DNA of 33,205 nucleotides from Candidatus Hydrogenedentota bacterium. GTDB lineage: Bacteria; Hydrogenedentota; Hydrogenedentia; Hydrogenedentales; JAGMZX01. Shown here piece by piece: positions 1,794-6,696 of the stretch. The first letter of the stretch is position 1; each line of letters opens with the position of its first letter. A program made the position numbers and the translations under genes. The DNA lies in assembly GCA_018005585.1 (NCBI GenBank), contig JAGMZX010000056.1, positions 1-33,205 on the forward strand, written 5' to 3'. The notes beneath the pieces are model-generated. The model did no database searches. It saw only the letters and a list, made by a program, of their open reading frames with translations, and was not told the DNA's origin.

Positions 1794-2837
1794 TCATCCC
1801 GCAGGCGTAAGGCGGCCCCGTTCCACCCAGTAAACGAGCAGGCGGCCGCCGCCGCGGCTCGCGTGGCGCGTATCCTCCAGACGTACCTGGCGCGGGGTGA
1901 CATTGAGCACCTCGAACCGACCGCCGAGCAGGTCTCCAACGCCCACCACCTCCTCCTCGGTGGCCTCCGCGCTCCTCTTGTAGACCACCGTATTCTGTTC
2001 CGGGTTCACCTGGAGAAACATGGAATACGCGGCCACTTCGTCCAGCACTTGCTGGCGTATGTCGCGGATGCGCGCGTCATTGTCCAGAATGACGCCCTCA
2101 CTGGTCAGCCGCGACGCCTTCTGGAGCAGTTCCGGGTCCCATGGGTCGGCAGTCAGCAACGCGTCGATTTCCTTCACAAAGTAATCGCGCGACTGGTTCA
2201 GCACCTGGTCGTTTTCCGGGCCGGGCGCATTATTCACGGCGTCCAACGCGGCCTTCAAGACTTCAAGGCCGCCGCCGTTCGCCGCCATCATCTCCGGCGC
2301 CCGGTTGTGGTACGTGGGCTTCTGCTCGACATCATCGCTGCGCAGCCCCTCCACTATCTTGTAGACAAACACGAGGCAAAGCAGCGTCGCGACGGCCACG
2401 CCCAGCCCCAACAACAGCCGCGATGCACCCGAGGGTTGCTGCGCGACACGCGGCGGCGGCGTGCTCGAGACCGTCGAGGAACTCAGCGCGAACTGCATCA
2501 GGTCGCGGCTGCGCGCGTCCAGTTCCGGAAGCCCCGAACCTCCGCCGAGGGCGGACGGCTCGCTGCCGGGCAGGTCGGCCTTCTGCCCGGAGATGACCTC
2601 GGCCCGAAAGGCCTCGATCGCCTCGATCACGTCCCCCGAAGGCGTATAGGTCGGTTGCGCGTCCCCCCCGAGGTCCTGGATAGTCAGATTGGCCTCTTTG
2701 CGCCTGGGCCGGGCCACTTCCCCGCCGCAGTGACGGCACTTGGTTGCCAAGACGCTGATTGGCATGCGGCAGATTGGGCATAGCCGCATGTCGTCCTGTT
2801 CTCGGAAGGGCACATCCGTGTCTGTCACAGCGCTCAT
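1794..2837 (-). CDS. Zinc-ribbon, single-pass membrane protein of unknown function
   Basis: This is a 347-residue protein. An N-terminal zinc ribbon has C20-x2-C23 and C34-x2-C37, in CPIC and CRHCGG knuckles. A low-complexity polar region (about 50-135) leads to one membrane helix at about 140-160 (LLLGLGVAVATLLCLVFVY). A C-terminal domain of about 185 residues follows. The layout implies a cytoplasmic zinc ribbon and an exported C-terminal domain. The C-terminal part holds helical sequence and then a short beta-like segment (GDLLGGRFEVLNVTPRQVRLED) of unknown role. The ATG at 2837 directly abuts a GGGAGG. The GTG three codons later (2828) has that same site at a 9-base distance and may be the true start. 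Confidence 0.75.
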   Translation of the reverse strand: MSAVTDTDVPFREQDDMRLCPICRMPISVLATKCRHCGGEVARPRRKEANLTIQDLGGDAQPTYTPSGDVIEAIEAFRAEVISGQKADLPGSEPSALGGGSGLPELDARSRDLMQFALSSSTVSSTPPPRVAQQPSGASRLLLGLGVAVATLLCLVFVYKIVEGLRSDDVEQKPTYHNRAPEMMAANGGGLEVLKAALDAVNNAPGPENDQVLNQSRDYFVKEIDALLTADPWDPELLQKASRLTSEGVILDNDARIRDIRQQVLDEVAAYSMFLQVNPEQNTVVYKRSAEATEEEVVGVGDLLGGRFEVLNVTPRQVRLEDTRHASRGGGRLLVYWVERGRLTPAG

Positions 2838-3113: not shown

Positions 3114-4118
3114 GTGCAATATCCAGGACATGCGAACGGCGGCAAACACCGGCCTGCCTCCGGAATCCGCGCGGCGGACTGGCGCGACCGGCTGCTGGGG
3201 TGTTGCGCCTACCTCGGCATGGCGCCGGTCTGGTTTGCGCTAAGGCGGCGGCTCGGCCGCCCCTTCGTGGACCGTCACGCCGGCCAGGCGCTGGTCTTGT
3301 TTCTGCTGTCGATGGCCATCGCCGCGCTGTTTCTGGTTTGCGCGGGCGCGCTCTCTTACGCGGTCGTGCACAAGCGGGAAATCTATGAGGGCACCTCCAT
3401 CGAGGGGTGGTTGCTCACGGTGTTTCGCTGGTTCGTGCTGGCCTGGCTCGTTTTCTGGGCTTACGGCGCCGGCTCCGCGCTGTTTGGCTCGTTTTGGGAG
3501 CTGCCGGGCGTGGCGTTTCTCGCGCGCCGGCACCGGGTTGCCGGCGCCGGGGCGATCTTCCAGACTGCCGTATACGCCCTGATACTGGCGCTGGCCGTCC
3601 TGGCCGTGCGCGCCTCCACTCTGGCCCGCGATGACTCCCGCCCCGCCGATGTGTACTTGCTCTATGAAGACGTGGACCGGTACCCGCGCTGGTTGTTCAC
3701 GCTGGCGTTCTACCCCGTCACGTGCGCCGGACTGGATAGCTTCGGCGACGATAGCGTGTCGGTCTTGAAACTCACGCGTGAGAACCTTGCGACGGCGCTG
3801 GCGCAGGGCCGCTTTGTATTCATCGGCTCCCACGGCAAGGCATCCGGCATGCTGCTCGACCGCCAGTGGTTCCCGCCGGAGGACGCGGCGGCGCTGCCAA
3901 AGGGGCCGCATCTGGCTTTCGTATATTTGTCCGGCTGCGACAGCGGCGCTCAGGCGGACGCATGGCGCGCGGCGTTTGCCCCGGCCGAAGTGGTGACGCA
4001 TAACCGCCTTACCGCCTTGATCGAGCATGTGTGGTGGCTCTGGTTCGAAGCGCCGGACGTCCTGCGCCGTCTCGCCGGCGGAGCGGCATCCCCGCCCGAA
4101 ACCATACGCGGCTCATGA
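3114..4118 (+). CDS. Membrane protein with Tic20/DUF4870-like segment and caspase/CHAT-like His-Cys dyad
   Basis: This is a 334-residue protein from the GTG at 3114, which follows AAAGGCGG by 5 bases; an in-frame TTG at 3042 lacks such a site. After about 25 residues come four or five hydrophobic helices. The first contains PFVDRHAGQALVLF, which resembles the F-x-x-x-H-A-x-Q-x-L signature of the Tic20/DUF4870 family. The soluble C-terminal part (from about residue 170) has DVYLLYEDV, then FVFIGSHGKASG with His240, then FVYLSGCDSG with Cys275. His-Gly followed about 35 residues later by a hydrophobic strand and S-G-C-x-S-G is the pattern of caspase-like clan CD domains such as CHAT. A Trp-rich amphipathic stretch (HVWWLWF) lies near the end. 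Fold, activity and substrate are inferred from the motifs only. It stands alone on its strand between a zinc-ribbon gene and a small exported protein. Confidence 0.7.
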   Translation: MQYPGHANGGKHRPASGIRAADWRDRLLGCCAYLGMAPVWFALRRRLGRPFVDRHAGQALVLFLLSMAIAALFLVCAGALSYAVVHKREIYEGTSIEGWLLTVFRWFVLAWLVFWAYGAGSALFGSFWELPGVAFLARRHRVAGAGAIFQTAVYALILALAVLAVRASTLARDDSRPADVYLLYEDVDRYPRWLFTLAFYPVTCAGLDSFGDDSVSVLKLTRENLATALAQGRFVFIGSHGKASGMLLDRQWFPPEDAAALPKGPHLAFVYLSGCDSGAQADAWRAAFAPAEVVTHNRLTALIEHVWWLWFEAPDVLRRLAGGAASPPETIRGS

Positions 4119-4252: not shown

Positions 4253-4705
4253 ATGAAAAAACTGTTGGTAGTGACGATTGCGGCTGTGGCGACCTTGGCG
4301 CTCTATGGCGTAACGACGGTTCTGGCGCAGGAACAGGCGGCCCCGGAACAGCCGGTCGAGGTAGTCGTGGAAGGCGTGAATTACTGCGTGCTCTGCGAAC
4401 TGGCGAAAGAGGAAGTCGCCGGCGCAAACAGCGCGTATGCGACGATGAACGCCGTGCGCGTAGTAGCCGCGCTGGACAAGGACAACAACCTGATGACCGA
4501 CCTCGAAGGGACGACGCTGCATTACCTGCCGACGAAGCAGGCGGAACCCCTGCTGGTCGGCGAGCAGTATCAAGGCGCGAACGTGACCATCACGGGCCTG
4601 TACTACAAGCAAGCCAACGTGCTCAAGGTGGTGAGTTTCGAAGCGGAAGCCACGGGCATGGACAGCGTCCCGGTCGGCACGAAGAGCAACCTGCAGGTCC
4701 TGTAA
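4253..4705 (+). CDS. Small exported protein with CxxC motif, unknown function
   Basis: This is a 150-residue protein. A classical signal peptide (MKK, hydrophobic core, cleavage near VLAQE, residues 23-26) indicates export. The mature domain starts with EVVVEGVNYCVLCEL, a C-x2-C pair at about residues 45-48 that could bind a metal or form a redox disulfide. The rest is predicted beta-rich, with NVTITGLYYKQANVLKVVSFE near the end, a strand pattern resembling an OB-type barrel. AAGGAG precedes the ATG by 8 bases. The gene is a single transcription unit with its own promoter and a strong terminator. I do not recognise a named family. It could be a periplasmic metal- or heme-linked factor, but that is speculation. 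Confidence 0.8.
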   Translation: MKKLLVVTIAAVATLALYGVTTVLAQEQAAPEQPVEVVVEGVNYCVLCELAKEEVAGANSAYATMNAVRVVAALDKDNNLMTDLEGTTLHYLPTKQAEPLLVGEQYQGANVTITGLYYKQANVLKVVSFEAEATGMDSVPVGTKSNLQVL

Positions 4706-4770: not shown

Positions 4771-6696
4771 TCACTCAGGCGGCGGGTACGCCCGAGTCTC
4801 AGCTCCCGTTCGTTCCTCCGACCCCTCAAGGCGCCTGAGGTTCGCCTCAACCACAGCGCAACCCGGTTCGCGCAGCAGCGCTTCGCGCAAATACCGCTCC
4901 GCTTCGCCCCGCCGGCCGAATGCCACGCACAGCACGGCCGCATTGTTCAAGGTCTGCACCTCCCGGCCGTAGATGTTCAGGCCGGTTTCCAGGTGCTCCA
5001 GCGCGGATTCCGGAAGACCCTCCCTGAACCTTTCGCGCGCCCGAGCAAGGTGATACTCATAGAGGATCAGTTCCGCCGTATCGTCGCCCCGGGCCTGTTC
5101 CGGGTCCAGGCCGTTGCGCCAGCGGTAACTGGCCCATACGTCCTTGTCCGGCGTCGGCGCGCCCAGCGGGACGGCCCGGAACAACAGACCTTCCTGCCGT
5201 GCGCGCCAGTGTGGCGGCAGCGCCGGCAACGTGGTGAAGTACACGGGCCGGGCCGTGTGGCGCAGCAGCGCCCCGAAGATTCCGGGCTCGTACCGGCGGC
5301 GCGGCTTATCGCCCCATTCCGCGGGGCGGTCATCCGCGGGGATTTCCGCCAGCACCTCCAGGGAGAGATAGCCGTACTTGCGCCCGATGATGATGTCCGG
5401 GCGCACCCCTTCGCTCGCCTGCACGTACACGGCGGGAAAACTCGCATGGTCCGCCTCGGGAATGTAAATCGCGCCGGGATCCATGGATTCAAGCACATTG
5501 CGCGCATAGTCTTGAGTCCAAAAATAGGAAGACTTGTCGTTCGCGCGCCAGTGCAGGAACAACGGGGTCAGCACGCACGCGGCAAGCAGAGGAACCGCCG
5601 CCGCGGCTGTGGTTATGGACCGTACCCGCGCCAGCAGTTCTGACAGCCACAGAGCCGTCATCATGTAGGCGGGGATGCCGAACACGGTCATGATGCCGAG
5701 CCATTCCTTGTCGAAATTGAAGTTCTGAACCAGCGCGAACCCGGCAACCACTACGACGGCCGCTGTCATCGTGAATACCGCGTCGGCCCGCCGTCTCCGC
5801 CACAACAGGCACCATCCCGCGAACCCAGCGAGCGTCACAGGCCAGCCGAATTGCCGCCACCAGAAGCCGGCACATGCCGCAAGTTGCCACAGGTAACGCG
5901 CCGCGTCGCGCGGATATTGCCAATACATGAAGCTGAGCTGCTTGCGCGTCGCGTGGTCCCAGAATCCCTGCAGCGTTTCCGGATTGCCCCAGTCCATGGG
6001 CGGGTCGGCAAGCGACGCCAGCGGCATATACGCATAGACAAACAGGCCGAGCAACGCGAACAGGGCCGCACCGGCGTAGACCCGCAGCCGGGCGATGCGG
6101 AAACCGTCTTCCCGGAGCACGAAGCCCGCAAAGACCGGCCCGAGCAGCATCATGGTGTTGTGGTTGGCAAGACTGAGCCCGTAGACGAACCCGAAGACAA
6201 GCAGACGGCGATCGCCGCGCGTGCGGCGCCATTCCCACAGCAGCAGAACGCACAGGGCAATCAGAAACGCGTTGAGCGCGTAAACTTCGGCAACAACAGC
6301 CTGTTCCCAGAACTCTTGCGAAAAGGCGAGCGCCAGCGAGGCTCCGAAAGCGGCCGCTCGGTTGCGCGTAAGCCGCAGCGCGAGCAGCGCCAGCAGAAAT
6401 ACCGTCGCCGATGCGAAGAAGGCGGACGACAGGTTGACGCGCCAGGCAATCGAGCCAAAAGGCAGCCACGTGAACACGTGCGCAAGCAGACACCATAGAG
6501 GATATCCAGGCGGATGCGGGATGCCCAGCGCATACGCGGCGGTGATGAATTCGCCGCTGTCTTCGCCCGTGACAGTAGGCCCGAGAGTCCGCAGGTATAC
6601 GAGAAAAGCGAGGCAAGCGGCGGCAAGCGCCGTGGCGTAATCCACGGCACGAAACGCACGGTCCTCGAGAGGCACGCCTGCTTGCGGTCCCATCAC
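4771..6696 (-). CDS. DUF2723 membrane protein with C-terminal TPR-like tail
   Basis: This is a 641-residue protein with about ten membrane helices. The first external loop reads LGPTVTGEDSGEF and then GIPHPPGYPLW, the signature of DUF2723, a branch of the GT-C fold related to protein O-mannosyltransferases; the acidic pair in EDSGEF sits where GT-C enzymes have a catalytic Asp/Glu. SQEFWEQAVVAEVYALN in the next loop is also typical. After about residue 400 the chain is soluble, and the last 80 residues form TPR-like helices (YHLARARERFREG, LREALLREPG). It probably transfers a lipid-linked sugar outside the membrane; donor and acceptor are unknown. The GTG at 6696 directly follows the plsY stop codon, with an ATG as second codon, so translation is probably coupled. 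Confidence 0.88.
   Translation of the reverse strand: MMGPQAGVPLEDRAFRAVDYATALAAACLAFLVYLRTLGPTVTGEDSGEFITAAYALGIPHPPGYPLWCLLAHVFTWLPFGSIAWRVNLSSAFFASATVFLLALLALRLTRNRAAAFGASLALAFSQEFWEQAVVAEVYALNAFLIALCVLLLWEWRRTRGDRRLLVFGFVYGLSLANHNTMMLLGPVFAGFVLREDGFRIARLRVYAGAALFALLGLFVYAYMPLASLADPPMDWGNPETLQGFWDHATRKQLSFMYWQYPRDAARYLWQLAACAGFWWRQFGWPVTLAGFAGWCLLWRRRRADAVFTMTAAVVVVAGFALVQNFNFDKEWLGIMTVFGIPAYMMTALWLSELLARVRSITTAAAAVPLLAACVLTPLFLHWRANDKSSYFWTQDYARNVLESMDPGAIYIPEADHASFPAVYVQASEGVRPDIIIGRKYGYLSLEVLAEIPADDRPAEWGDKPRRRYEPGIFGALLRHTARPVYFTTLPALPPHWRARQEGLLFRAVPLGAPTPDKDVWASYRWRNGLDPEQARGDDTAELILYEYHLARARERFREGLPESALEHLETGLNIYGREVQTLNNAAVLCVAFGRRGEAERYLREALLREPGCAVVEANLRRLEGSEERTGAETRAYPPPE

Follow-up and report, generated by a model that had tools for sequence, protein, structure and literature searches.

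The window, that is, the whole 33,205-nucleotide stretch of Hydrogenedentota DNA analyzed here, encodes a 334-residue protein that is reasonably likely to be a cysteine peptidase with clan CD kinship, held in the membrane by a HOTT/Tic20-like anchor and carrying a probably extracytoplasmic domain that would cut exported or membrane proteins. Judged by sequence comparison, what appears to be new is a previously unclassified Hydrogenedentota protein whose two halves each have relatives. Pfam and NCBIfam both leave the protein unclassified, and the full-text literature on Hydrogenedentes with caspase and on DUF4870 yielded no account of it.

The open reading frame is real. The purine-rich sequence AAGGCGG stands immediately 5' of its GTG start at 3114, and the stop codon occupies positions 4116–4118 on the + strand. 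We treat an antisense ORF of 262 residues across the same interval as a shadow ORF, a by-product of the G+C-rich frame. The motifs named in the original prediction are all present where it placed them: PFVDRHAGQALVLF at residues 50–63, SHG with His240, and LSGCDSG with Cys275, the candidate nucleophile lying exactly 35 residues after the histidine.

Table 1 Features of the 334-residue protein and its gene, in window coordinates
Feature	Position	Strand	Evidence
334-residue fusion protein gene, GTG start	3114–4118	+	Open frame; homolog in 36/68 phylum genomes; dN/dS about 0.1
Residues 23–42, first weakly hydrophobic helix with AP break; corresponds to the HOTT/Tic20 reentrant-like helix	3180–3239	+	AlphaFold; hydropathy peak about 1.1; DUF4870 profile match starts here
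Residues 43–58, conserved basic loop with His55 and Gln58 (R..PFVDRHAGQA), Tic20/DUF4870 signature	3240–3287	+	hhalign P 3.8e-6; His55 32/33; mean K+R 3.97
Residues 58–86, transmembrane helix	3285–3371	+	Family-mean hydropathy up to 2.66; AlphaFold helix 50–86
Residues 96–123, transmembrane helix with conserved W111 and W115	3399–3482	+	Alignment, AlphaFold, hydropathy
Residues 140–170, extra transmembrane helix leading into the catalytic domain	3531–3623	+	AlphaFold, hydropathy
Residues 172–322, putative minimal caspase/haemoglobinase-type (CHAT/C25-like) domain	3627–4079	+	AlphaFold pLDDT 91.4; hhalign
Glu185-Asp186, loop L1 after strand 1	3666–3671	+	Column counts; possible S1 role by analogy with clan CD (PMC4357240)
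His240, candidate catalytic histidine (SHG), end of strand 3	3831–3833	+	33/33 invariant; strand 234–238
Cys275, candidate nucleophile (LSGCDSG), after strand 4	3936–3938	+	33/33 invariant; strand 269–272
His305 in EHxWWLW, start of C-terminal helix	4026–4028	+	33/33 invariant; AlphaFold helix 302–321

AlphaFold models the whole protein with a pLDDT of 90.4 and a pTM of 0.84, and residues 172–324 with a pLDDT of 91.4 and a pTM of 0.89. The catalytic domain is predicted to contain strands at residues 180–184, 215–219, 234–238, 269–272 and 292–295, and a small β hairpin (245–253) separates the third strand from the fourth. In both models His240 comes just after the third of these strands and Cys275 after the fourth. 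The recognized landmarks of clan CD are a histidine after strand 3, a cysteine after strand 4 and a hairpin between them (PMC4357240), and by this definition the strand order is seen in the model and His240, Gly241 and Cys275 are invariant. The confident models thus agree with a fold of the caspase/haemoglobinase type, and on this count they do not speak against the original prediction. In clan CD, the loop after strand 1 contributes to the S1 pocket (PMC4357240). Since this loop is acidic at position 185 in all aligned members (Glu or Asp in 33/33), Glu185-Asp186 is a candidate S1 pocket, and it is reasonable to suppose that P1 is basic.

In Foldseek searches of the PDB with the domain alone, flavodoxin-like proteins rank first (TM about 0.5), followed at lower ranks by the TPR-CHAT protease (8d9h_E; TM 0.46, E 0.01) and caspase-11 (6ns7_B; E 0.028); with the whole protein, helical membrane proteins and flavodoxins dominate the matches. 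Structural ranking by itself is therefore ambiguous. The viral Foldseek library returned nothing at E 0.001, and a sequence search of solved structures returned nothing meaningful. The top-ranking flavodoxin-like matches, together with His305, a third invariant histidine outside the usual clan CD dyad, would fit a non-peptidase α/β domain (flavodoxin- or receiver-like) in which His240, Cys275 and His305 bind metal or carry out other chemistry. The clan CD landmarks described above, namely the placement of His-Gly and Cys and the intervening hairpin (PMC4357240), argue against such a domain, as does the profile comparison below, and we regard it as quite unlikely.

For that comparison, alignments of Hydrogenedentota proteins were built for each of CHAT, C25 and flavodoxin and compared with the catalytic domain by hhalign. 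Over the dyad region the domain matches CHAT strongly, with P 4.7e-8 (95% probability) in local and 1.9e-7 in global mode, and C25 moderately, with P 1.3e-4; the scale is set by CHAT against C25, at P 2.6e-4. Shuffled, reversed and N-terminal-half controls gave nothing. The flavodoxin control reached P 0.027, which is not significant, and an identity as a flavodoxin is not supported. By these profiles CHAT appears to be the closest family and C25 the next, in line with the CHAT-like reading of the original prediction, and kinship of the catalytic domain with clan CD is very likely.

Conventional family searches fall short of this. The window protein has no Pfam match to CHAT (PF12770) or DUF4870 (PF09685), genome scans for either family did not return the locus, and its score for Peptidase C25 (PF01364) is 15.3 bits, below the cut-off of 23. 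When the 33 aligned family members were scanned one by one, sub-threshold Pfam matches appeared to C25 in seven and to CHAT in six (best E 9e-4), and DUF4870 matches in just three (best E 7e-4). The C25 genome scan independently picked one family member (G002, E 3.8e-4), and the best C25 score in the family, 21 bits, is likewise below the cut-off. The HMM searches suggested with the original prediction therefore gave a divided answer: the relationships emerge in profile comparison, but the window protein stays below the Pfam thresholds of all three families (CHAT, C25 and DUF4870), and because of this we describe it as a relative rather than a filed member of them. Clan CD enzymes are common in the source organism, since other parts of the genome from which the window comes hold two CHAT genes and three strong Peptidase C25 genes.

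The protein differs from each of the known systems that it resembles. (i) With CHAT, for instance the TPR-CHAT of Craspase, it shares the placement of His-Gly behind strand 3 and of Cys behind strand 4, but the CHAT profile spans 289 positions compared with about 150 residues here, and here a membrane domain is fused and there is neither a TPR nor a conflict-system context. (ii) With C25 (gingipains) it has in common a similar His-to-Cys spacing of about 35 residues and a putative extracytoplasmic location, whereas the C25 proteins of these genomes lie in frames of about 930–3490 codons and ours is small and membrane-anchored. (iii) Cyanobacterial membrane orthocaspases also combine a bacterial caspase-type domain with transmembrane segments (PMC7475262); theirs, however, are C14 p20 domains, predicted to be cytoplasmic and accompanied by varied accessory domains, whereas ours is CHAT/C25-like, C-terminal and predicted to lie outside. 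The original prediction had regarded a membrane-embedded version without effector or sensor neighbours as unusual. Membrane location alone is not new, because membrane-bound bacterial caspase homologues have been described previously (PMC7475262); the second part stood, in that no such neighbours were seen in the surroundings examined.

The N-terminal half resembles the DUF4870/HOTT and Tic20 superfamily (PF09685; PMC11628618) in its conserved charged loop and two further helices, which come after a first helix that may be reentrant-like. It differs in that this first helix is shorter and in that an extra transmembrane helix and the catalytic domain follow. Compared by hhalign with the DUF4870 proteins of the phylum, the N-terminus matches across the AP...RPF..H..QA motif (Table 1) with clean negative controls, and with this and the shared architecture the proposed DUF4870/Tic20 resemblance holds. 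Loops 1 and 3 are basic (family-mean K+R 3.97 and 3.82), and loop 2 is acidic (K+R 1.55, D+E 2.58). By the positive-inside rule these charge counts would make loops 1 and 3 cytoplasmic and would place the catalytic domain, which follows the last helix, probably on the extracytoplasmic side.

Conservation was assessed in an alignment of 33 members with 29–59% identity to the window protein. His240, Gly241, Cys275 and His305 are unchanged in 33 of 33, the WWLW helix at His305 is conserved, and the SHG/LSGCDSG arrangement is thus not a chance one; the non-conservation of His240 or Cys275 that would have counted against a dyad was not seen. The other nearly invariant histidine is His55 (32 of 33), within the Tic20/DUF4870-like motif, and cysteines 30, 31, 76 and 204 and histidines 86, 140, 266 and 296 vary. 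A few divergent members carry variants after the cysteine (GCHADV, GCNAAV, or GCD with a short deletion) and retain both His and Cys. NG86 estimates of dN/dS for four pairs are about 0.09–0.13. The gene is under strong purifying selection, with the dyad among its best-kept features. We consider peptidase activity likely. In one homolog (L035; G008:C344:14000-16200) the reading frame is broken in two and the catalytic domain is preceded by a proline-rich stretch, which reflects either a frameshift or an assembly fault.

A first search found homologs in 36 of 60 related genomes, and a profile search of all 68 Hydrogenedentota genomes again gave 36 with a homolog, one copy per genome. Across these 68 the members always occur as the fusion; with the catalytic domain alone as query, no convincing second copy and no stand-alone domain was found. 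A motif-based scan of genome contigs returned 21 loci, whose record titles without exception read Hydrogenedentota, Hydrogenedentes or Hydrogenedens or referred to unnamed MAGs; the restriction to Hydrogenedentota is that of this single scan, which divergent relatives in other phyla may escape. Within the phylum, the gene is missing from all 25 genomes of one family (f4), which shows that it is not universally needed. Six f4 regions beside the zinc-ribbon gene that is a neighbour of the fusion gene elsewhere contain no remnant of it, and in five of the six the aldolase-like gene directly adjoins; a missed remnant was rejected on this basis. The pattern is one of vertical inheritance, with clean absence in that one family.

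In several families the gene adjoins this divergent zinc-ribbon gene (window 1797–2837, − strand) and a gene resembling class II aldolases, behind which comes an aminotransferase-like gene, and in others it lies near surE-, dapB- and dnaE-like genes; these names were read from the sequences of the neighbours, not from a family scan. The zinc-ribbon protein has an N-terminal CPIC...CRHC, one membrane segment and no Pfam family above cut-off, with relatives of about 600 residues in family f10. Its gene was rejected as a dedicated partner, being present in 63 of the 68 genomes, including family f4, which lacks the fusion gene. Other genes nearby encode a 200-residue putative lipoprotein (LVACVFGCAHNGK; 1033–1632, −), syntenic in six examined loci and without a Pfam match; a 150-residue protein that begins much like a signal peptide and contains a CVLC motif, also without a Pfam match (4253–4705, +); and a TMEM260-like O-mannosyltransferase-type protein with C-terminal TPR-like repeats (4771–6696, −; Pfam E 5e-38).

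Defence genes are usually patchy in distribution and mobile. In the neighbourhoods examined there are no defence genes and no sensor or effector genes, PADLOC and PHROG searches gave no defence or phage signature for the protein, and the viral contigs and plasmids searched hold no relatives of it. These results, with the single copy and conserved synteny, count against a membrane-bound caspase-like enzyme of programmed death or anti-phage defence, akin to TPR-CHAT and the orthocaspases, whose membrane part would be the sensor. Such a role could draw on the kinship with CHAT, many bacterial members of which are thought to act in conflict systems, and on the proposal that membrane orthocaspases are death initiators (PMC7475262), but we judge it improbable. 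The association with defence or programmed death mentioned in the original prediction finds no echo here in a defence family, in defence-type neighbours or in a patchy mobile distribution. The gene looks instead like an inherited one-per-genome gene, and a processing role is the likelier one by a good measure.

The single-copy housekeeping pattern and the predicted extracytoplasmic, membrane-abutting active site would also suit a transpeptidase or sorting enzyme, whose dyad would not simply cut exported proteins but attach them to an acceptor, like gingipain-family PorU and GPI transamidase; clan CD includes such transpeptidase-type enzymes, PorU and PIG-K. Exosortase genes, however, do not cleanly take the place of the fusion gene, since the two occur together in several families and are both missing from some, and we consider this alternative unlikely.

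For the membrane-anchored peptidase, we infer catalysis, membrane side, P1 preference, substrate and processing role as follows. The HOTT/Tic20-like segment and one extra transmembrane helix would hold the minimal caspase/haemoglobinase domain against the membrane, on the probable extracytoplasmic side, with its active site near the outer face. The catalytic dyad would consist of His240 and Cys275 and would cut membrane or exported proteins near the bilayer, perhaps after a basic residue. More tentatively, and as a rather doubtful possibility, the protein could be a maturation or sorting protease peculiar to the phylum. Its Tic20-like module would collect exported or membrane substrates and hand them to a caspase-type active site at the inner membrane's outer face; if true, one polypeptide would unite a clan CD protease with a targeting module.

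Bacterial CHAT and caspase homologues have mostly been discussed as enzymes of defence and death. An inherited, single-copy, membrane-anchored homologue with an invariant dyad would give a handle on the ordinary bacterial roles of the clan, and the fusion links a HOTT/Tic20-type membrane domain, whose family has hardly any known function, with an enzyme activity that can be tested.
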